Assembly: GCF_009193295.2 (NCBI RefSeq)
Contig: NZ_CP059973.1
Span: forward strand, 5,270,001-5,334,000
Reading direction: 5' to 3'
From: Bacteroides luhongzhouii
GTDB lineage: Bacteria; Bacteroidota; Bacteroidia; Bacteroidales; Bacteroidaceae
DNA length: 64,000 nucleotides
Part shown: positions 20,101 to 45,023 of the stretch, piece by piece
Layout: every line of letters starts with the position of its first letter
How positions within the stretch are numbered: position 1 is the first letter of the stretch
The notes under the pieces: generated by a model
Database searches by the model: none
What the model was told of the DNA's origin: nothing
Seen by the model: the letters and a program-made list of their open reading frames with translations, nothing else
Made by a program: the position numbers and the translations under genes

Positions 20101-20691
20101 TCAATTAAAAATCCACAAATTAGCTGCCACCAGTAACAAGAAAGATTTGCTCATGCGCTCCCGTAAACTGGATATAGCCATATGAGTAGTATTGTAAACT
20201 GTACGCGAAGTGAGCCCCATCACCTGGGCTATTTCTTCCGGACTCATCTTCTTATAGTACTTCAGATACAATACCTCCCGCTGTTGCTTTGTCAAATTAT
20301 TCAGTTCTTTCTGCAAAACTTCCAGCTGTTCTTTTTCCAACTCTGAATGGATAATAGCAGTTTCAATATCGATCTCCAGATCAAACTGATATTCGTTTGT
20401 GCCTACTTCATCCAGTGATTTGAATGATCCACTATTCTCTTTTTTCAGCTCGTTCACTATCATGTGTCTCAACGAAACACACAAGTAAGCGGGTATGGAT
20501 TGAGGCGCCGCGCAAGTTTCTCTTTTCTCAAAGATATAAACAAACAACGACTGTATCGCTTCGGTCACCAGAGTATCATCACCGGCTATCTTCATGCCAT
20601 ATCCATACAGTAAATCTGCATATTGCTCATAAAGCTGCCGGAATGCCTCTTCATCCCCTTGCTGAATCTTATCCCAGGATAGTGTCTTCAT
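20101..20691 (-). CDS. ECF-family RNA polymerase sigma-70 factor
   Basis: This 196-residue sigma factor has region 2 at about 18-85 (LYEQYADLLYGYGMKIAGDD, then SIPAYLCVSLRHMIVNELKK) and region 4 at about 125-180 (LNNLTKQQREVLYLKYYKKM, then EEIAQVMGLTSRTVYNTTHM, a clear helix-turn-helix). It is co-transcribed with the FecR-type anti-sigma factor that follows after 9 nt. It begins 77 nt after the prfC stop and I see no good promoter between them, so read-through from prfC is possible. The regulon cannot be read from this window. Confidence 0.92.
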   Translation of the reverse strand: MKTLSWDKIQQGDEEAFRQLYEQYADLLYGYGMKIAGDDTLVTEAIQSLFVYIFEKRETCAAPQSIPAYLCVSLRHMIVNELKKENSGSFKSLDEVGTNEYQFDLEIDIETAIIHSELEKEQLEVLQKELNNLTKQQREVLYLKYYKKMSPEEIAQVMGLTSRTVYNTTHMAISSLRERMSKSFLLLVAANLWIFN

Positions 20692-34046: not shown

Positions 34047-35555
34047 TTACAGTTTCAACTTCTTACTTACGGATTTCGATTCATTATGTAAACGATCTAA
34101 AGCAGTCACTACATAACGGTATTTTGTTTTTCCTGTTTCATAAGGAAGTTTGTAGAACGGATTGCGAGTGATAGCTACAATATGTGAAGGATCGTCCAAA
34201 TTCACCTTCTCTTTGCTGCCAAAGCGATAGACTACATATCGAACAGCCTTATCCATCTCCGTATCGGCTTTCGGAGCAGTCCAGAACAGAATATAGCCGT
34301 CTTCTGTCCATACCTTTTTCATTTTGCGCACCTTGTCCGGAGCTTTATCATCCATAAAATCAAAGACTGGAACCAAAGCCGGATACTTATGATATTCACT
34401 GATTAAAGCATCACGATATCTACCCTGATTCTCAACAACAGCTGCCGCATACCATTGGCAACTACCTCCGATTGTCTGATAAGCACGTTGCAAAGCCATC
34501 TTACGGGGAAGCTGATTGATAGAAGGATTCTGCGGATCGGCAAACTGAACAGTCTTCGGCACAGATTGACCGATAAACAACGGCCGGTTTTCCGAATGAG
34601 TAGCCCACCATTTCACCAATGTCTCATAGTCAGCCGCTTTATGACCAATTTCCCAATAAACCTGCGGAATATTATAATCAATCCATCCTTCACGTGCCCA
34701 AAGCAGTACATCGGCATAAAGATCATCATAGTTTTGCAAGCCATTGGTATTGCTTCCCAACGGGTCACTCTTCTGGTTACGATAGATACCAAACGGACTG
34801 ATACCGAACTTCACCCAAGGCTTGATGCCACGAATCGTTTCGTGAAGCTTCTTTATCAACACATTCACATTACTACGACGCCAATCTGCCTTATTCGTGA
34901 AACCTCCACCATAACGGGCAAAGCTCGCATTATCCGGGAAATCCAATCCATTAACCGGATAAGGATAGAAATAGTCATCCATATGGATAGCGTCCACATC
35001 ATAACGAGACACGATATCAGTCACAATTTTACAGATGTACTCCCGACTTTCAGGAAGTGCCGGGTCGAAGTATAGCTGATCGCCATAAGTAACAAACCAT
35101 TCCGGATGCTGGTGATAAATATGCTCCGGCGCCAACTTGTTTTTTAATGAAGTCTTCACACGATAAGGATTGATCCAGGCATGAAACTCCATATTCCGTT
35201 TCTGACATTCTTCAATCATAAACTGCATCGGATCCCACATAGGAGAAGGCATCTGTCCTTGTGTTCCTGTCAGGAAACGGCTCCACGGTTCATATTGGGA
35301 AGCGTATAATGCATCCGCTTCAGGGCGCACCTGAAAAATGATCGCATTAATACCGGCTTCCTGAAGAGAATTCAACTGGCTAATCAATGTTTGCTTCAAT
35401 CGCTCTGTGGGAATACCACGAAACTGGCCGTTGACAGCCTGTATCCATGCTCCACGGAATTCACGTTTAGGATATTTATTGCCTGACGGCACCTGCGCCC
35501 TCACTCCTGCCACCAGAAGAAGGGCTAAAAGTAAAAGATAGTTTTTCAGCTTCAT
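34047..35555 (-). CDS. GHL10 (DUF187) glycosyl-hydrolase-like protein
   Basis: This is a secreted TIM-barrel protein of the glycosyl-hydrolase-like 10 family, 502 residues from the ATG at 35555 with signal peptide KNYLLLLALLLVAGVRAQ. Motifs are KREFRGAWIQAVNGQFRGIP, NAIIFQVRPEADALY, EFHAWINPYRVKTS, the acidic DAIHMDDYFYPYP at the strand-4 end, and YNIPQVYWEIGHKA. A C-terminal fibronectin-III-like domain (about 410-502) follows. A reading frame open to 35663 is rejected because the signal peptide begins at 35555. The family probably acts on cell-wall or glycan material, but activity is not established. A paralogue lies at 43557-45023. It is divergent from uvrA. Confidence 0.85.
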   Translation of the reverse strand: MKLKNYLLLLALLLVAGVRAQVPSGNKYPKREFRGAWIQAVNGQFRGIPTERLKQTLISQLNSLQEAGINAIIFQVRPEADALYASQYEPWSRFLTGTQGQMPSPMWDPMQFMIEECQKRNMEFHAWINPYRVKTSLKNKLAPEHIYHQHPEWFVTYGDQLYFDPALPESREYICKIVTDIVSRYDVDAIHMDDYFYPYPVNGLDFPDNASFARYGGGFTNKADWRRSNVNVLIKKLHETIRGIKPWVKFGISPFGIYRNQKSDPLGSNTNGLQNYDDLYADVLLWAREGWIDYNIPQVYWEIGHKAADYETLVKWWATHSENRPLFIGQSVPKTVQFADPQNPSINQLPRKMALQRAYQTIGGSCQWYAAAVVENQGRYRDALISEYHKYPALVPVFDFMDDKAPDKVRKMKKVWTEDGYILFWTAPKADTEMDKAVRYVVYRFGSKEKVNLDDPSHIVAITRNPFYKLPYETGKTKYRYVVTALDRLHNESKSVSKKLKL

Positions 35556-35583
35556 AATATTCTTAAATCGTAATAATGTGACG

Positions 35584-35622
35584 CAAAGATAATACAAACT
35601 CCCGATAAATTCGCTAACTTTG
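35584..35622. promoter_or_regulatory. Overlapping divergent -7 elements for the GHL10 gene and uvrA
   Basis: The minus strand has TATCTTTG (35584-35591), 29 nt before the GHL10 ATG. The plus strand has TAACTTTG (35615-35622), 28 nt before the uvrA ATG. Both match the -7 consensus; the -33 boxes are poor. Confidence 0.6.
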
Positions 35623-35649
35623 CCGACTACCATAAAAAAGGAGTATTTT

Positions 35650-38421
35650 ATGTCAGAAAACAACTATATTTCGATCAAAGGCGCACGAGTCAACAACCTA
35701 AAAAACATCGATGTAGATATTCCCCGCAACAAACTTGTTGTTATCACCGGATTGTCGGGTTCGGGAAAATCATCACTTGCTTTTGATACCCTTTATGCAG
35801 AAGGACAACGCCGCTACGTAGAAAGTTTAAGCAGCTACGCGCGTCAGTTCTTGGGGAGAATGAGCAAACCGGAATGTGACTTTATCAAAGGGATTCCTCC
35901 CGCCATTGCCATCGAACAAAAAGTAAACAGCCGTAATCCCCGTTCCACTGTGGGCACCTCGACTGAAATTTACGAATATCTACGCCTGTTATATTCACGG
36001 GTGGGGAAAACGTATAGTCCCATCAGCGGGCAGGAAGTGAAGAAGCACTCCACAGAAGACATCGTCAACTGTATGCTTTCCTATCCGGAAGGCACAAGAT
36101 ATACGGTACTGACGCCTATCCGCCTGCGTGAAGACCGCACATTGCAACAGCAACTGGAGATAGACCTGAAACAAGGATTCAACCGTATCGAAGTGAACGG
36201 TGAAATGAAACGAATCGATGAATATACACCTGTGGCAGGTGATGAAGTCTATCTGCTGGTTGACCGTATGGCGGTTGCCACCAGCAAGGACGCCATCAGC
36301 CGACTGACTGATTCTGCCGAAACAGCCATGTACGAAGGCGACGGAACCTGTATGCTGCGCTTTTTCCTATCGGATGGCACCACAAAACTACATACTTTCA
36401 GCACTAAATTCGAAGCGGACGGCATCATCTTTGAAGAACCGAACGACCAGATGTTTTCATTCAACTCGCCTATTGGCGCTTGTCCGGTGTGCGAAGGATT
36501 CGGCAAAGTTATCGGCATTGACGAGCACTTAGTCGTTCCGGATCGTTCATTATCGGTATATGAAGGAGCCATCGTATGCTGGCGTGGAGAAAAGATGGGT
36601 GAATGGAAAGAAGAACTGATCCACAATGCGGATAAATTCGATTTTCCTATTTTCACTCCTTATTATGAGTTGACGGATGCACAGCGCCGGTTACTTTGGG
36701 AAGGCAACCAATACTTCCACGGCATCAATGATTTCTTCAAGATGCTGGAAGAGAATCAATATAAGATACAATATCGGGTAATGCTGGCACGTTACCGGGG
36801 GAAGACGCTTTGCCCGAAATGCCACGGCACCCGCCTGAAACCGGAAGCCGGATATGTACGGGTGGGCGGAAAGAATATTTCCGAACTGGTGGATTTGCCT
36901 ATCACAGAACTGAAGCAATTCTTCGATCATCTGGAACTGGATGAGCACGACAGCAATGTGTCCCGACGTATTCTGATTGAAATAAACAGCCGGATTCGCT
37001 TTTTAATCGATGTAGGTTTGGGCTATCTGACTTTGAACCGGCTTAGTAATTCCTTATCGGGTGGAGAAAGCCAGCGTATCAATCTGGCAACTTCATTGGG
37101 AAGTAGCCTTGTGGGTAGTCTTTATATTCTCGATGAGCCAAGTATCGGACTGCATAGCCGTGATACAGACCGCCTGCTCCATGTGTTGCGTCAACTGCAA
37201 CAATTAGGAAATACGGTAGTGGTGGTAGAGCACGATGAAGAGATTATCCGTGCGGCGGATTACATTATCGACATAGGTCCCAATGCCGGACGCCTGGGCG
37301 GAGAAGTCGTTTACCAAGGCGATCTGAAGGATTTGAAGAAGGGAAGCAATAGTTATACGGTACGTTATCTTTTAGGAGAAGATGAAATACCCGTTCCGGA
37401 GCATCGCCGGCCGTGGAATAACTATATCGAACTGAAAGGTGCACGTGAGAATAATCTGAAAGGAGTAAACGTACGTATCCCGCTCAATGTAATGACAGTT
37501 GTTACGGGTGTTTCCGGTTCCGGAAAAAGTACATTGGTGAGAGATATTTTCTTCCGGGCATTGAAGCGTGAATTAGACGAATGTAGCGACCGACCGGGAG
37601 AATTCTCTTCAATCGGAGGAAGTTTGCGTGACCTGCGGAATGTAGAATTTGTAGATCAGAACCCGATTGGCAAATCATCGCGCTCAAATCCGGTGACTTA
37701 CATCAAGGCTTACGACGAAATCCGCAAACTATGGTCCGAACAGCCTTTGGCGAAGCAAATGGGATATACCCCCGGATTCTTCAGTTTCAATAGTGAAGGC
37801 GGACGTTGCGAAGAGTGTAAAGGAGAAGGAACCATCACTGTAGAAATGCAGTTTATGGCAGATTTGGTATTGGAGTGTGAATCTTGTCACGGAAAACGCT
37901 TCAAATCCGACACGCTGGAAGTGAAATTCAACGATAAAAGCATCTACGATGTATTGGAGATGACCGTCAACCAAGCGATTGAGTTCTTCAACGAACATGG
38001 ACAGAAGAAAATTGTGAAAAAGTTGCTTCCTTTGCAGGACGTAGGACTGGGATATATCAAATTAGGACAGGCTTCTTCTACCCTTTCCGGTGGTGAGAAC
38101 CAACGTGTCAAACTCGCATTTTATTTAAGTCAGGAGAAAGCCGACCCGACGATGTTTATCTTTGACGAGCCGACTACAGGATTGCACTTCCATGATATCC
38201 GCAAACTTCTGGATGCTTTCGACGCGTTGATTCGCCGGGGACACAGCATCGTTATCATCGAGCATAACATGGACGTCATCAAATGTGCTGATTATGTAAT
38301 CGACCTCGGACCGGAAGGTGGAGATAAAGGTGGAAATATCGTAGCAGTGGGTACTCCGGAAGAAGTTGCCGCCTGCGGAGCAAGCTATACAGGGCAGTTT
38401 CTGAAAGAAAAACTAGGATAG
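35650..38421 (+). CDS. uvrA: Excinuclease ABC subunit A
   Basis: This is the damage-recognition ATPase of nucleotide excision repair, 923 residues. The first P-loop is [20 protein letters not shown]. The first zinc finger is a CxxC...CxxC set around [10 protein letters not shown] and [10 protein letters not shown]. The first ABC signature is [14 protein letters not shown], with Walker [11 protein letters not shown]. The second P-loop is [15 protein letters not shown], the second zinc module CEECKGEG...CESCHGKR, and the second signature [14 protein letters not shown] with Walker [15 protein letters not shown]. The ATG at 35650 gives the canonical N-terminus ([20 protein letters not shown]); the upstream in-frame start at 35620 lies inside the promoter. 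Bacteroides often carry a second UvrA-like gene elsewhere. Confidence 0.96.
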
Positions 38422-38753
38422 GAACAATTCATTTTCTTTGATTCTTTATATCTTATCTCGCCCCACATATGCAAGGCATTTGTACCCTCTACCTTTAGGA
38501 GGAGTGTTCAAAGCCTTGCACTTTACTTCCTTTATCCCAATTACGCCTTTTACTTCTTGATATAAATAACAAGCCTAACACACAAACAACCAATCCATTA
38601 ATGATTCTTAAACTGACTACATTTTGATAGGCTTCAGCTTCCCCTTACACAAAAGACAAAGAATAGAAATGTTAAAATCACAAAAGATATGCAGTCTTTG
38701 GGAGTTCTATATATCATATCTAAAATAGACTGTCGTATAGAACATAAAAACAC
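38422..38753. other. Intergenic region between uvrA and the sigma-barrel gene
   Basis: AT-rich, no ORF. I find no strong terminator after uvrA and no perfect promoter. An imperfect CAGTCTTTG (about 38691) is the closest -7 candidate for the gene at 38754. Confidence 0.45.
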
Positions 38754-40265
38754 ATGAACCAAAAGGAACTTATAGAGTTATGTAAAAAAGGAGATAAGTC
38801 AGCTCTAAGCTGGCTCTACCAAACCTATGCCGATAAAATGACAAGAATATGCTTTCATTATGTTTCTGACAGACAAATAGCACAAGACCTCCTACATGAT
38901 GGCTTCATTATCATCTTCACCTCTATAGACACCCTACATTCTCCTGATAAATTAGAATATTGGATGGGAACCATTATGAAAAACATATCTTTAAGATATT
39001 TGAAACAGTGCAGTTCAAAGTCCACAATCTCTTTAGAAGAAATGAGTGAAGATGAAGTCCCCATTGACACTTTTCCCTCTAATGATTTTCCAGCTTACAA
39101 GACAATGATCAGAATGATAGAATCGCTCCCTGAAGGCTATAACAAAGTTTTCAAATTGGCTGTATTAGAAGGATTGTCTCACAAAGAAATTGGTTCATTA
39201 TTAAATATAGCTCCTCATTCTTCCTCATCGCAATTATCAAGAGCGAAAGATATATTACGGAGACTCATCTCCCAACACCGTATTATGATTGGATTATTTA
39301 TATTGTCATCTATCATTTTTATACAAATATGGCTATATACATCTAAGAAAGCTATTACTACAGAACAAAACATTGTGACTACACAGAAAGAGAAAAAACA
39401 AAATGCTAAAAGCATATTATCAAAAGATTCTATAAAAACTATTTTAAATCATGTCCCCACTACTCCTCGGTATACAGATTTACAATCTATAAGAAAGATA
39501 TCCAAACAAGAGGTTATTTTACAAGGCAGCGTTCCAGAAGGAAACGACAGCATTCAATTGTCTAATCATCAGATCATAGAGAATCAAGATACAAAAAAGC
39601 GGAAAGAATTTTACAACACCTATACTTCAAAGCAACTTTCCAACAATAAAAAAAACTGGTCGTTGGCTGTTTCTTATTCAGGAGGAGAAAAACAAGTCAA
39701 CTCTCACAAATCAAGAATCCCCGGTGATATTTCATCCGAATCCCCCAAAGAAGTAGTGGAGAAATCATATCATCACATCCCTGTTACACTATCACTTTCG
39801 TTGCGTAAAAACATAAATGAGAACTGGGGTATAGAAACCGGAGTACAATATACATACCTACGTTCTGACTTCACGACCATCAGCGATTCTTATTTAGAGA
39901 AAATACAGAAAATCAGTTATATAGGAATCCCAATCAAAGGCTCTTTCAATATATGGAAACAACGAAGATTCTCTCTATACACTTCCGCTGGAATGACTTT
40001 GGATATACCTGTAAAAGCAACTTCAGAAGAATTCACGTCAGAAAATGGGCAAATTATATCTGAAAAGAAGAGTAGCTTATATCCACATTTACAGTGGTCA
40101 GCGGATTTTGGTATAGGCATCCAGTATCATATAACACCCTCTATCGGAATCTATGCAGAACCGAATTTACGATACTACTTCAACAATGAGAATAAGCTGA
40201 ATACAATTAGGACAACAAAGCCATTCAATATGACATTGCCTATAGGTATTCGCCTATCTTGGTAA
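38754..40265 (+). CDS. Single-chain ECF sigma factor fused to an outer-membrane beta-barrel
   Basis: This 503-residue frame is uninterrupted. Residues 1-175 are an ECF sigma factor: region 2 at about 15-82 (LYQTYADKMTRICFHYVSDR, then LHDGFIIIFTSIDTL, TIMKNISLRYLKQ) and region 4 at about 120-172 (YNKVFKLAVLEGLSHKEIGS, HTH, then QLSRAKDILRRLI). One transmembrane helix follows at about 176-195 (IMIGLFILSSIIFIQIWLYT), then a charged, low-complexity linker of about 100 residues (196-300). About 200 residues of alternating amphipathic strands typical of a porin-like outer-membrane barrel end with the aromatic residue expected of barrels (IGIRLSW). No cleavable signal peptide is present, so the sigma part should stay in the cytoplasm. 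In Bacteroides such sigma factors are usually separate from a barrel-bearing membrane partner. DNA is AT-rich against its neighbours. Function and ligand unknown. Confidence 0.82.
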   Translation: MNQKELIELCKKGDKSALSWLYQTYADKMTRICFHYVSDRQIAQDLLHDGFIIIFTSIDTLHSPDKLEYWMGTIMKNISLRYLKQCSSKSTISLEEMSEDEVPIDTFPSNDFPAYKTMIRMIESLPEGYNKVFKLAVLEGLSHKEIGSLLNIAPHSSSSQLSRAKDILRRLISQHRIMIGLFILSSIIFIQIWLYTSKKAITTEQNIVTTQKEKKQNAKSILSKDSIKTILNHVPTTPRYTDLQSIRKISKQEVILQGSVPEGNDSIQLSNHQIIENQDTKKRKEFYNTYTSKQLSNNKKNWSLAVSYSGGEKQVNSHKSRIPGDISSESPKEVVEKSYHHIPVTLSLSLRKNINENWGIETGVQYTYLRSDFTTISDSYLEKIQKISYIGIPIKGSFNIWKQRRFSLYTSAGMTLDIPVKATSEEFTSENGQIISEKKSSLYPHLQWSADFGIGIQYHITPSIGIYAEPNLRYYFNNENKLNTIRTTKPFNMTLPIGIRLSW

Positions 40266-40363
40266 AAAAACAAAGATTATCATGCAGTCTTTCAGAGAAT
40301 AGTTTATCATCATTATAGAAAGTAATTTTAATTGTGTTACTCTTTATATATGAAACTATTATT

Positions 40364-41146
40364 ATGCAAGAACGTCATGAGAACCGGAATATCTATTTCA
40401 AAGAATTGTCCATAACAAGCAGGAATTATTTTATCCCATATATCCAATGTTGGCATGCAATAGAAGCAAGAATGAATGTATTGGAAATTGGTTGTGGTGA
40501 TGGAGGTAATTTGCTTCCTTTCTCGGAAATGGGATGCAATATTATAGGGGTTGATATGGCTAAAAGCCGTATTAAAGATGCAAAAAACTTTTTTAATGTA
40601 CACCATGCAGAAGGTGAATTTATAGCATCAGATATATTTAAGCTAAAGGAATTGGAGCAGAATTTTGATATTATTATCTGCCATGATGTATTTGAGCATA
40701 TCACAGAAAAAGAACAATTCTTATCTAATTTGAGTAAATATCTGAAGCCACAAGGCATTGTTTTTATGTCATTCCCAGCATGGCAAATGCCATTTGGAGG
40801 TCACCAACAAATATGTAGAAACCGTATCTTGTCCTATCTGCCTTTTATTCATTTATTCCCTGTTTCTATATACCGATCAATTCTAAAAGCCTTCAGAGTA
40901 GACACTGATTGTATCAAAGAGCTGCTTTCCATAAAAAAGACAGGCGTATCAATAGAATTATTCGAAAGATTAGTTCAAAAGACAAATCTAATAATACAAA
41001 ACAGGCAACTATGGTTCATTAATCCCCATTATAAAATAAAATTCGGGCTATCCCCACGTCAACTGAATCAGATGATTTCTGGAATACCTTATTTGAGAAA
41101 CTTTGCAAGTACAAGCTGTTTCTACATCTTAAAAGAAAAAGACTAA
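40364..41146 (+). CDS. SAM-dependent methyltransferase, class I
   Basis: This 260-residue methyltransferase has motif I NVLEIGCGDGGNLLPFSEMG, the acidic end of strand 2 NIIGVDMAKSRI, motif II DIIICHDVFEHI, and the post-II segment SKYLKPQGIVFMSFPAW. This is the ubiE/Coq5-like SAM-binding fold. The remaining C-terminal half (about 155-260) has hydrophobic and aromatic segments but no obvious transmembrane helix, and its target cannot be named. I chose the ATG at 40364; the frame extends ten codons upstream, less plausibly. It is AT-rich like the preceding sigma-barrel gene, 98 nt away, and may be in the same transcription unit. Confidence 0.8.
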   Translation: MQERHENRNIYFKELSITSRNYFIPYIQCWHAIEARMNVLEIGCGDGGNLLPFSEMGCNIIGVDMAKSRIKDAKNFFNVHHAEGEFIASDIFKLKELEQNFDIIICHDVFEHITEKEQFLSNLSKYLKPQGIVFMSFPAWQMPFGGHQQICRNRILSYLPFIHLFPVSIYRSILKAFRVDTDCIKELLSIKKTGVSIELFERLVQKTNLIIQNRQLWFINPHYKIKFGLSPRQLNQMISGIPYLRNFASTSCFYILKEKD

Positions 41147-41300: not shown

Positions 41301-41786
41301 CTATAAGTAGAAACCGAATCCAATCTTCACACCGAAACGTGACATATCTCCATCATTGAAACGCCATTTATAATAAACGGCAGGTTCAATGGTTACCGTA
41401 CGCGAAAGGAAGTAAGCGTATCCGGCTTCGATGCCCAGTCCCCAGTCTGTCTGATGTTTTCCACCACTCCAACGGAAGCGGTTCCAGTCGAGTCCGCCAC
41501 CCAGATAAATACCGGTTTTATTGAAGTAGAAACGTACTCCGGTACCTAGTGTATATTCGTCTACCGGTTTCGACCAGTCGGCTCCGGCATTTACCATCAA
41601 GGCAATACCTTCGGCAAAGAATGTACCGACCTGTGCACCAACTCCAAATTTTGCTTTATCATTTTTACTATACGAAAAGTCCAACCCCGACAATGAAGGA
41701 TTAATAATCGTAGTTCCTTTCTCAAATTGCGCCTGTGCAGTGAAAGAGACTGCCAATAAGCAAAGAGCCAAAGCTAATTTCTTCAT
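41301..41786 (-). CDS. Small outer-membrane beta-barrel protein
   Basis: This 161-residue protein has a signal peptide (LALALCLLAVSFTAQAQ) and alternating strands throughout (KFGVGAQVGTFFAEGIALMV, YTLGTGVRFYFNKTGIYLGG, WGLGIEAGYAYFLSRTVTIE), ending FGFYL with a C-terminal hydrophobic residue as in eight-stranded OmpX/PagP-size barrels. The family is common in Bacteroidales, where it is usually annotated only as an outer-membrane or porin-family protein. It lies 4 nt after the small membrane protein, at the end of the cstA operon. Function unknown. Confidence 0.8.
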   Translation of the reverse strand: MKKLALALCLLAVSFTAQAQFEKGTTIINPSLSGLDFSYSKNDKAKFGVGAQVGTFFAEGIALMVNAGADWSKPVDEYTLGTGVRFYFNKTGIYLGGGLDWNRFRWSGGKHQTDWGLGIEAGYAYFLSRTVTIEPAVYYKWRFNDGDMSRFGVKIGFGFYL

Positions 41787-43556: not shown

Positions 43557-45023
43557 ATGCGCTATACTATTTTCATTCTTTCACTTTTGTTTCCTTTCCT
43601 CTCAATTGTTGCGCAACCCAAACACGAAGTTCGTGCCGCATGGGTGACAGCGGTGTACGGCTTGGATTGGCCTCGCACACGTGCGACAACTCCTCAAACG
43701 ATCCGCAAGCAGAAAGAAGAATTAATAGATATTCTTGATAAGTTGAAGGCTGCCAACTTCAACACTGTCCTATTTCAAACCCGTACTCGTGGAGATGTGT
43801 TATATCCTTCGGCAATCGAACCTTTCAATTCGATTCTGACGGGAAAGACAGGAGGAAATCCGGGATATGATCCGCTGGCCTTTGCCGTTGAAGAATGTCA
43901 TAAGCGAGGAATGGAATGTCATGCCTGGATGGTAACTATCCCGTTGGGGAATAAGAAGCACGTTGCTTCGCTCGGCAGTCAGTCTGTCACCAAGCGGGTG
44001 AAAGATATCTGTGTTCCTTACAAAAGTGAATATTTTCTCAATCCGGGACATCCGGCAACGAAGGAGTATTTGATGAAACTGGTGCGGGAAGTCGTTAGCG
44101 GTTATGATGTGGACGGAGTACATTTTGACTACCTGCGTTATCCGGAGAATGCTCCTCTTTTTCCTGATAAATATGATTTCCGCCGATATAATAAAGGACG
44201 CACACTGGATCAGTGGCGCCGGGATAATATCTCCGAAATTGTACGTTATATATATAAAGGCGTAAAAGCCATGAAGCCTTGGGTAAAAGTAAGTACCTGC
44301 CCGGTAGGTAAATACCGGGATACTTCGCGTTACCCCTCCCGTGGATGGAATGCTTTCTTTACCGTTTATCAAGACCCGCAAGGCTGGATGGGAGAAGGTA
44401 TTATGGATCAAATTTATCCGATGATGTATTTCCAGGGAAACAATTTCTACCCTTTTGCCCTCGACTGGCAGGAACAGAGTAACGGACGGCAAGTGATTCC
44501 GGGACTCGGCATTTATTTTCTCCATCCCGATGAAGGCAAATGGACACGCGACGAAATAGATCGTCAGATGAACTTTATCCGCAGTCAGAAAATGGCGGGT
44601 GAAGGACATTACCGGGTGAAATACCTGATGGAGAATACACAGGGTATTTATGATGAATTATCCGAGAATTTTTATGCATATCCTGCTTTACAGCCTCCTA
44701 TGCCATGGCTGGATAATGTTGCGCCAACTGCTCCTTCTGCGCTGAAAATTACTCATATCGATAATGGATATACGGAATTAACCTGGCAGGCTGCTACTGA
44801 TAACGATCAGCGCAACAAGCCCATGTATGTTATTTATGCTTCTAACGATTATCCGGTAGATATCAACCGACCGGAAAATATCGTTGCGCAAAATATCCGA
44901 GAGACGAGTTACGTATATGCCCCTATCCTACCTTGGAATGCAAAAAAGCACTTCGCAGTGACGGCTATTGACCGCTATGGAAATGAAAGTACAGCGACAC
45001 AGGAACAAACGGTTCAGCAGTAA
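43557..45023 (+). CDS. Second GHL10 (DUF187) glycosyl-hydrolase-like protein
   Basis: A paralogue of the protein at 34047-35555: 488 residues with a signal peptide (TIFILSLLFPFLSIVAQ). Motifs are KHEVRAAWVTAVYGLDWPRT, NFNTVLFQTRTRGDVLY, ECHAWMVTIPLG, the acidic GVHFDYLRYPEN, WVKVSTCPVGKYRD and IMDQIYPMMYFQGN. A C-terminal fibronectin-III-like domain (about 400-480; ELTWQAATDNDQRNKPMYVI) ends in a polar tail. It begins with its own -7 box and is divergent from cstA. Two GHL10 proteins within 10 kb suggest duplicated envelope-processing roles, but no substrate is shown. Confidence 0.85.
   Translation: MRYTIFILSLLFPFLSIVAQPKHEVRAAWVTAVYGLDWPRTRATTPQTIRKQKEELIDILDKLKAANFNTVLFQTRTRGDVLYPSAIEPFNSILTGKTGGNPGYDPLAFAVEECHKRGMECHAWMVTIPLGNKKHVASLGSQSVTKRVKDICVPYKSEYFLNPGHPATKEYLMKLVREVVSGYDVDGVHFDYLRYPENAPLFPDKYDFRRYNKGRTLDQWRRDNISEIVRYIYKGVKAMKPWVKVSTCPVGKYRDTSRYPSRGWNAFFTVYQDPQGWMGEGIMDQIYPMMYFQGNNFYPFALDWQEQSNGRQVIPGLGIYFLHPDEGKWTRDEIDRQMNFIRSQKMAGEGHYRVKYLMENTQGIYDELSENFYAYPALQPPMPWLDNVAPTAPSALKITHIDNGYTELTWQAATDNDQRNKPMYVIYASNDYPVDINRPENIVAQNIRETSYVYAPILPWNAKKHFAVTAIDRYGNESTATQEQTVQQ

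Follow-up and report, generated by a model that had tools for sequence, protein, structure and literature searches.

A single gene in the window (the whole stretch of 64,000 nucleotides analysed here, from Bacteroides luhongzhouii) encodes an ECF sigma factor, a membrane helix, a disordered linker and an outer-membrane-type beta-barrel in one polypeptide. The gene belongs to a family that is conserved well beyond this genome, its product has no detectable anti-sigma domain of the Dma type, and it is flanked by a paired promoter-like motif found almost nowhere else. We propose that the protein is a membrane-tethered, self-activating sigma factor, gated by its outer-membrane barrel and released by proteolysis, a reading that we place just on the favourable side of even. 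In the available text of earlier reports the usual form is two genes, one for an ECF sigma factor and one for a dual membrane-spanning anti-sigma factor, as in Das/Dma (PMC13088901), EcfO/Reo (PMC13114119) and pairs of the same kind (PMC9308784). The fused gene and its parts are as follows.

38754-40265, + strand: fused gene, ATG to stop, 503 codons, for ECF sigma factor, membrane helix, linker and barrel (frame, Pfam, relatives, selection, predicted structure)
38754-39029, + strand: sigma region 2, residues 1-92
39087-39269, + strand: sigma region 4, residues 112-172
39213-39347, + strand: uninterrupted predicted helix of residues 154-198 that takes in the sigma-4 recognition helix and crosses the membrane (predicted structure)
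39282-39338, + strand: transmembrane helix, residues 177-195 (hydropathy)
39348-39644, + strand: disordered, putatively periplasmic linker, residues 199-297, about 100 residues (pLDDT about 36-49; higher dN/dS)
39645-40262, + strand: OmpA/OprF-like beta-barrel, residues 298-503, with C-terminal W (Pfam, structural matches, predicted structure)

The unbroken 503-codon frame described in an earlier note on this DNA was recovered as one ATG-to-stop frame, while the other two forward frames across the same interval contain 36 and 27 stops. Pfam matches above the curated cut-offs were obtained for Sigma70_r2 (residues 21-85, E 1.7e-9), Sigma70_r4_2 (118-165, E 1.7e-11), OMP_b-brl_2 (331-476, E 4.5e-10) and OMP_b-brl (344-483, E 1.6e-9). 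TIGR02937 also matched above its cut-off and, with fold matches, these results bear out the earlier assignment of sigma regions 2 and 4, the two regions of an ECF sigma factor, to the N-terminal half. Hydropathy picks out a single stretch, best at residues 177-195 with a mean Kyte-Doolittle value of 2.25, and every window that scores above 1.4 begins at residues 171-179; this agrees with the single helix that the note had placed at about 176-195. The polar linker of about 100 residues is predicted to be disordered at about residues 200-297, and the porin-like segment of about 200 residues, said to end in an aromatic residue, corresponds to an OmpA/OprF-like barrel fold at about 298-503; its C-terminal W is shared by 101 of the 106 distinct relatives. 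Because the pTM of the AlphaFold model was only 0.46, the model informs on the single domains and not on their arrangement.

A missed frameshift between 39280 and 39340 had been raised as a concern and was refuted. The same 503-codon frame, aligned without indels, is present in G086 (86% identity) and G082 (80%), which rules out a frameshift or an artefact of this kind. Other genomes, to which the note had pointed as a check, also carry the fusion: one open frame spanned the whole fused profile in 118 of 158 loci (106 distinct proteins), a count in which intact copies are favoured, most loci having been fetched as best matches to the fused profile or protein, and in which the loci are not independent, some repeating a species. 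Comparison of three pairs gave dN/dS values of 0.09-0.12 for the sigma part and 0.10-0.14 for the barrel, indicative of purifying selection on both halves, and of 0.35-0.47 for the linker. Interrupted copies in G034 (L025) and G089 (L031) and a split copy in G292 (L131) are what a pseudogene, or an error of sequencing or assembly, might look like; against 118 loci with one open frame and dN/dS of 0.09-0.14 in both halves, the chance that the fusion itself is such an artefact is negligible. On these data the sigma-barrel fusion appears to be a conserved family and no local accident, and one that is apparently being lost in some genomes.

Among 149 genomes sampled from the genus Bacteroides there were 12 recognised carriers, 10 intact and the 2 interrupted ones, which is a minimum count because only L040 and L045 were examined among the long frames of unfused sigma genes. 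Both of these open frames of about 600 residues were rejected as fusions, a TAG lying between separate, in-frame sigma and barrel genes. Since other genomes of the genus lack the gene and the copies in G034 and G089 are interrupted, the fused gene is dispensable. The family sample gave a fused-profile match at E <= 1e-60 in 77 of 301 genomes and 17 of 30 genera, with a stop-free match over the whole model in 57 of the 301 (counted from the match table), and the fused family thus looks common in Bacteroidaceae as sampled. A scan of named genomes found 529 relatives, and all 80 loci kept from it were full-length single frames, with carriers that include Bacteroides faecis (L060), B. salyersiae (L061), Phocaeicola intestinalis, Hallella bergensis, Hoylesella timonensis and Muribaculaceae. 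Beyond this family the fusion is rare: only 4 of 295 genomes in the order sample matched, of which two lay outside family f1, one with internal stops, and the phylum sample (247 genomes) held no full-length match besides the window's own genome. Second fused copies were found in G157, G205 and G319. A contig filed as Lachnoclostridium sp. UBA7122 (L050) carries a 93% identical fused gene together with the methyltransferase gene described below; it is probably a misbinned Bacteroides contig.

The contrast with the two-gene form, drawn in the earlier note, can be made within one genome, where two sigma-plus-barrel pairs are the nearest paralogues of the fused gene.

3314476-3318012 of the own genome: Das/Dma-type pair (L002), with a NigD1/NigD2 family lipoprotein gene beside it on the other strand
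5121504-5125028 of the own genome: Das/Dma-type pair (L003)

Their sigma factors are 40% and 37% identical to the fused one and their barrels 37% and 31%. Behind each sigma gene stands a separate gene whose product has a short N-terminal domain followed by a membrane helix, linker and barrel. A NigD-type lipoprotein gene is of the kind reported to be under Dma1/Das1 control in the available text of PMC13088901, and both pairs are of the Das/Dma type. The fused sigma is homologous to the Das-type sigma factors.

The fused protein appears to lack the domain that makes Dma an anti-sigma factor. An HMM built from 17 Dma N-terminal domains, which recovered its 17 source proteins and covers Dma-type anti-sigma domains only, gave no match at E <= 0.1 in frames of at least 30 residues across the 118 fused loci. 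Moreover, the spacing between sigma region 4 and the membrane helix (residue 163 to residue 174) is 11 in all 106 distinct fused proteins, which leaves no room for a Dma N-terminal domain; in the predicted structure the recognition helix continues directly into the membrane helix. Regulators of the IutY type contain a FecR-like anti-sigma or regulator part, and no FecR-type family is among the eight Pfam matches of the fused protein at E <= 10.

Fused and Dma barrels fell on two sides of one branch (SH-aLRT 97), and the Das sigma factors formed one side of a branch (100) in the sigma tree. With outside ECF rows included, the unconstrained sigma tree broke up the fused rows (2 changes); a single clade of fused sigmas was nevertheless not rejected (p-AU 0.579), the tree constrained to that clade being 5.32 log units better. 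These were quick trees with long branches, and barrel row L132 was 16% filled. Either fusion of a pair or fission of a fused gene may lie behind the present forms.

The second distinctive feature of the locus is a paired motif, which lies at the following positions together with the neighbouring gene.

38669-38677, + strand: ATGTTAAAA, an AT-rich block preceding site 1 that some of the Bacteroides/Phocaeicola relatives conserve (nine upstream regions aligned)
38690-38699, + strand: site 1, TGCAGTCTTT, which lies 64 nt before the start codon of the fused gene and is its proposed -35 element
38712-38719, + strand: TATCATAT, the proposed second (-10-like) element, separated from site 1 by 12 nt
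40283-40292, + strand: site 2, TGCAGTCTTT, which lies 81 nt ahead of the ATG of the methyltransferase gene and is its proposed -35 element
40305-40310, + strand: TATCAT, the proposed second element, separated from site 2 by 12 nt
40364-41146, + strand: proposed target gene, coding for a class I SAM-dependent methyltransferase of 260 aa (Pfam)

TGCAGTCTTT occurs exactly twice in the window, before the fused gene and between the fused and methyltransferase genes. When the upstream regions of nine relatives were aligned, TGCAGTCTTT stood out as a conserved block, with another, for instance TATCAT, behind it. Of 106 relatives, 99 have GCAGTC in the 300 nt that precede the gene, in most cases some 52 nt ahead of the start (in L126 it is at an odd place). 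With at most one mismatch, 117 of 118 loci have TGCAGTCTTT near the frame start, in a region spanning about 290 nt, 100 have it within 160 nt past the frame end, and 99 at both ends; 18 loci have no second site within 160 nt. Random 160-nt stretches from the same loci contained it, again with at most one mismatch, in 101 of 2360 cases. Across 1.2 Mb there were 198 sites along the direction of the fused gene and 3 opposite, with 7 for the reversed word on both strands. The second element varies by clade (ATC-type, GGACT-type or CTCyT-type), and the two sites of a locus carry the same type in 84 of 99 loci, compared with a mean of 40.5 and a maximum of 52 in 1000 shuffles, a concordance to which shared ancestry partly contributes.

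The paired motif is nearly private to the fused locus. Only 2 of the 18 TGCAGTCTTT sites in the own genome have TATC 12 nt on, both at the fused locus; the remaining 16 have no TATC at that distance and mostly lie inside long open frames. Among 15 relatives picked as carriers of the GGAC form, 4 of which pass 90% completeness, all 26 strict GGAC-type sites were beside the fused gene, and the reversed-pattern control gave 0. In G379 the second site is about 1.45 kb past the fused gene, and no strict site accompanies the second fused copies of G157, G205 and G319. The TATC form was found at 30 sites in 24 of the 149 genus genomes (11 sites in the reversed-pattern control), 11 in recognised carriers and 19 in genomes without a recognised copy, and in its strict form is absent from 5 of the 12 carriers. 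The short TATC pattern alone is therefore not diagnostic, single sites elsewhere being near the control level; two such sites within 2 kb occurred in four carriers only (G000, G082, G139 and G140). From position and conservation we infer that the two blocks would act as -35 and -10 elements, and the conserved pair is consistent with, rather than proof of, a cognate promoter of the fused sigma.

A related motif, in which GCAGTATTT precedes a block resembling GCATTTA, was seen by eye at a corresponding place upstream of 13 of 20 unfused das genes (loci L002, L033, L035, L036, L039, L040, L041, L043 and L045-L049, but not L042 or L044). It is probably a promoter of the EcfO/Das type, and would fit a family of sigma factors with diverging promoters. 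The EcfO motif of B. fragilis is known (PMC7366714, available text). The difference between the fused-gene motif and the Das motif also bears on how the fused sigma might be controlled. An anti-sigma factor acting in trans, for example a Dma paralogue, could do so, as two Dma-type proteins are encoded in the same genome and the fused sigma part is 37-40% identical to their Das-type partners; with a motif of its own, however, and no Dma-type domain in any frame of at least 30 residues in the 118 fused loci (by the Dma-type HMM only), we regard control in trans as very unlikely.

The genes that follow the fused gene, its proposed targets, differ between clades. A methyltransferase homologue is present in 19 of the 118 loci and directly downstream in 17; other neighbours are an unknown lipoprotein (40 loci), a radical SAM/SPASM protein (58), a GFO/IDH/MocA oxidoreductase (43), a CotH-type protein (9) and a GT2 glycosyltransferase (2), in counts affected by the many loci that are cut by contig ends. 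Second motif sites could be assigned to the lipoprotein gene in 29 cases, the methyltransferase in 14, the radical SAM gene in 12 and CotH in 6, with 24 sites left without assignment. These identities weakly suggest that the targets modify envelope components.

Several other features of the loci were recorded. In Prevotella and Muribaculaceae relatives (L062-L158, e.g. L086 and L092) the lipoprotein, radical SAM/SPASM and GFO/IDH/MocA oxidoreductase genes recur as a cassette behind the fused gene. In the window, a gene for a small outer-membrane barrel protein (PF13505) at 41301-41786 (- strand) is convergent with the methyltransferase gene and is kept in the G086 and G082 loci. A second ECF-like sigma gene at 20377-20667 (- strand) matches the fused sigma weakly (E 1.9e-4, frame of 198), and two apparently related frames at 34047-35663 (- strand) and 43557-45023 (+ strand), whose translations by eye have a secreted, glycoside-hydrolase-like look, flank the locus.

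In the mechanism that we favour, the sigma part would reside in the cytoplasm, tethered by the helix that runs from the DNA-recognition helix of sigma 4 into the inner membrane, while the disordered linker would cross the periplasm to an OmpA-like barrel in the outer membrane. Because no anti-sigma domain was found, we propose that the inner membrane itself serves as the anti-sigma, with sigma 4 held about 11 residues from the bilayer. Disturbance of the barrel or its failure to assemble, through outer-membrane stress or a ligand, would be the trigger; envelope stress is the signal suggested for the Reo and Dma systems in the available text of PMC9308784 and PMC13114119. Regulated intramembrane proteolysis would then free the sigma part. 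One M50 protease was found, but of a family that is also present in all 14 control genomes. The freed sigma would transcribe from TGCAGTCTTT-type promoters its own gene, giving positive feedback, and usually the next gene too, here the methyltransferase and elsewhere the lipoprotein, radical SAM enzyme, CotH-like protein or glycosyltransferase.

It is also conceivable that the linker, disordered and faster-evolving as it is, holds a site of constitutive cleavage, and that the fusion serves only for the joint production of a sigma factor and a barrel protein, each acting by itself with no signal passing between the two. Against this, the stretch from residue 195 to residue 302 is never shorter than 98 residues in the 106 distinct proteins, in all of which the distance from sigma 4 to the membrane helix is also fixed; in the homologous Dma, moreover, barrel and cytoplasm are joined by one chain. 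We consider this account quite unlikely.

Confinement of the motif to the locus and the missing anti-sigma domain also permit action in cis at the membrane. RNA polymerase is recruited at the membrane by regulators of the ToxR/CadC type. The sigma part might likewise never leave the membrane, the barrel and linker shifting its position or oligomeric state so that RNA polymerase is recruited to the locus there, with co-translational insertion keeping gene, product and both sites together. A regulator that stays close to its own gene would require strict sites placed as they are here, almost only beside that gene, and the one continuous predicted helix with its fixed spacing also speaks for this reading. 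A private regulon needs no tethering, however, sigma 4 at about 11 residues from the bilayer would leave the polymerase little room, and IutY, a fused ECF sigma that has been characterised, is freed by proteolysis (PMC8999054, available text); we consider this alternative unlikely. In a more speculative form, the protein would be a single-chain receptor from cytoplasm to outer membrane in which the membrane replaces the anti-sigma and the sigma acts in cis, perhaps without leaving the membrane, which would tie the state of the cell surface to the receptor's own gene and a single neighbour only; this, too, we hold to be unlikely. Release by proteolysis upon a signal from the barrel remains our preferred reading.

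New here is the promoter-like motif, TGCAGTCTTT with a clade-specific second element, near the start and just past the end of the fused frame; the lack of an anti-sigma domain, and a motif so confined to the locus, are odd as well as new. In the two-gene Dma/Das and Reo/EcfO systems a barrel-bearing anti-sigma reports on the outer membrane. If our proposal is correct, the fusion achieves this by a one-molecule route without an inhibitory domain, a very short line from cell surface to gene. Whether membrane anchoring alone can silence a sigma factor, and how a signal from a barrel reaches transcription, become testable questions, for which the paired, near-private motif is a ready reporter. The fused protein is, besides, a design from nature on which sensors in gut bacteria could be modelled.

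Four points go beyond the earlier note, whose author knew of no characterised example: the two-gene form is an already described class, a fused ECF sigma/anti-sigma, IutY, has been characterised, the fusion is a widespread family, and its motif is paired. For a sigma-barrel fusion, no paper was found by title or the start of the abstract; the founding Dma1 (PNAS 2024), EcfO and ECF re-classification papers may mention the fusion or the motif. The word 'fused' is absent from the main text of PMC13088901.

According to the available text of PMC8999054, IutY of Pseudomonas putida (ECF243) is a fused ECF sigma/anti-sigma of cell-surface signalling that is released by proteolysis involving Prc and RseP. 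Pfam, hydropathy and predicted structure identify the present protein, like IutY, as an ECF sigma with a C-terminal membrane-anchored extension. IutY, however, retains an anti-sigma part and belongs to an aerobactin-sensing system, whereas the extension described here ends in a barrel. The same text describes ECF48, ECF52 (SCO4117) and ECF53 of Actinobacteria, in which a C-terminal fusion with membrane helices and extracytoplasmic parts is likewise expected to be activated by proteolysis; these differ in having a zinc-finger anti-sigma domain and no outer-membrane barrel, and come from another phylum (PMC8999054). Das/Dma and EcfO/Reo of Bacteroides fragilis and Phocaeicola vulgatus share with the fused protein a homologous ECF sigma, one inner-membrane helix, a long disordered tether and a C-terminal barrel (PMC13088901, PMC13114119 and PMC9308784, available text), and a similar motif lies upstream of unfused das genes. 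Those systems consist of two polypeptides, whereas the fused protein is one, without a detected cytoplasmic anti-sigma domain; the fused gene has its own motif variant, with strict sites nearly confined to its locus, and the neighbouring target is a methyltransferase here, in contrast to the NigD lipoprotein there.
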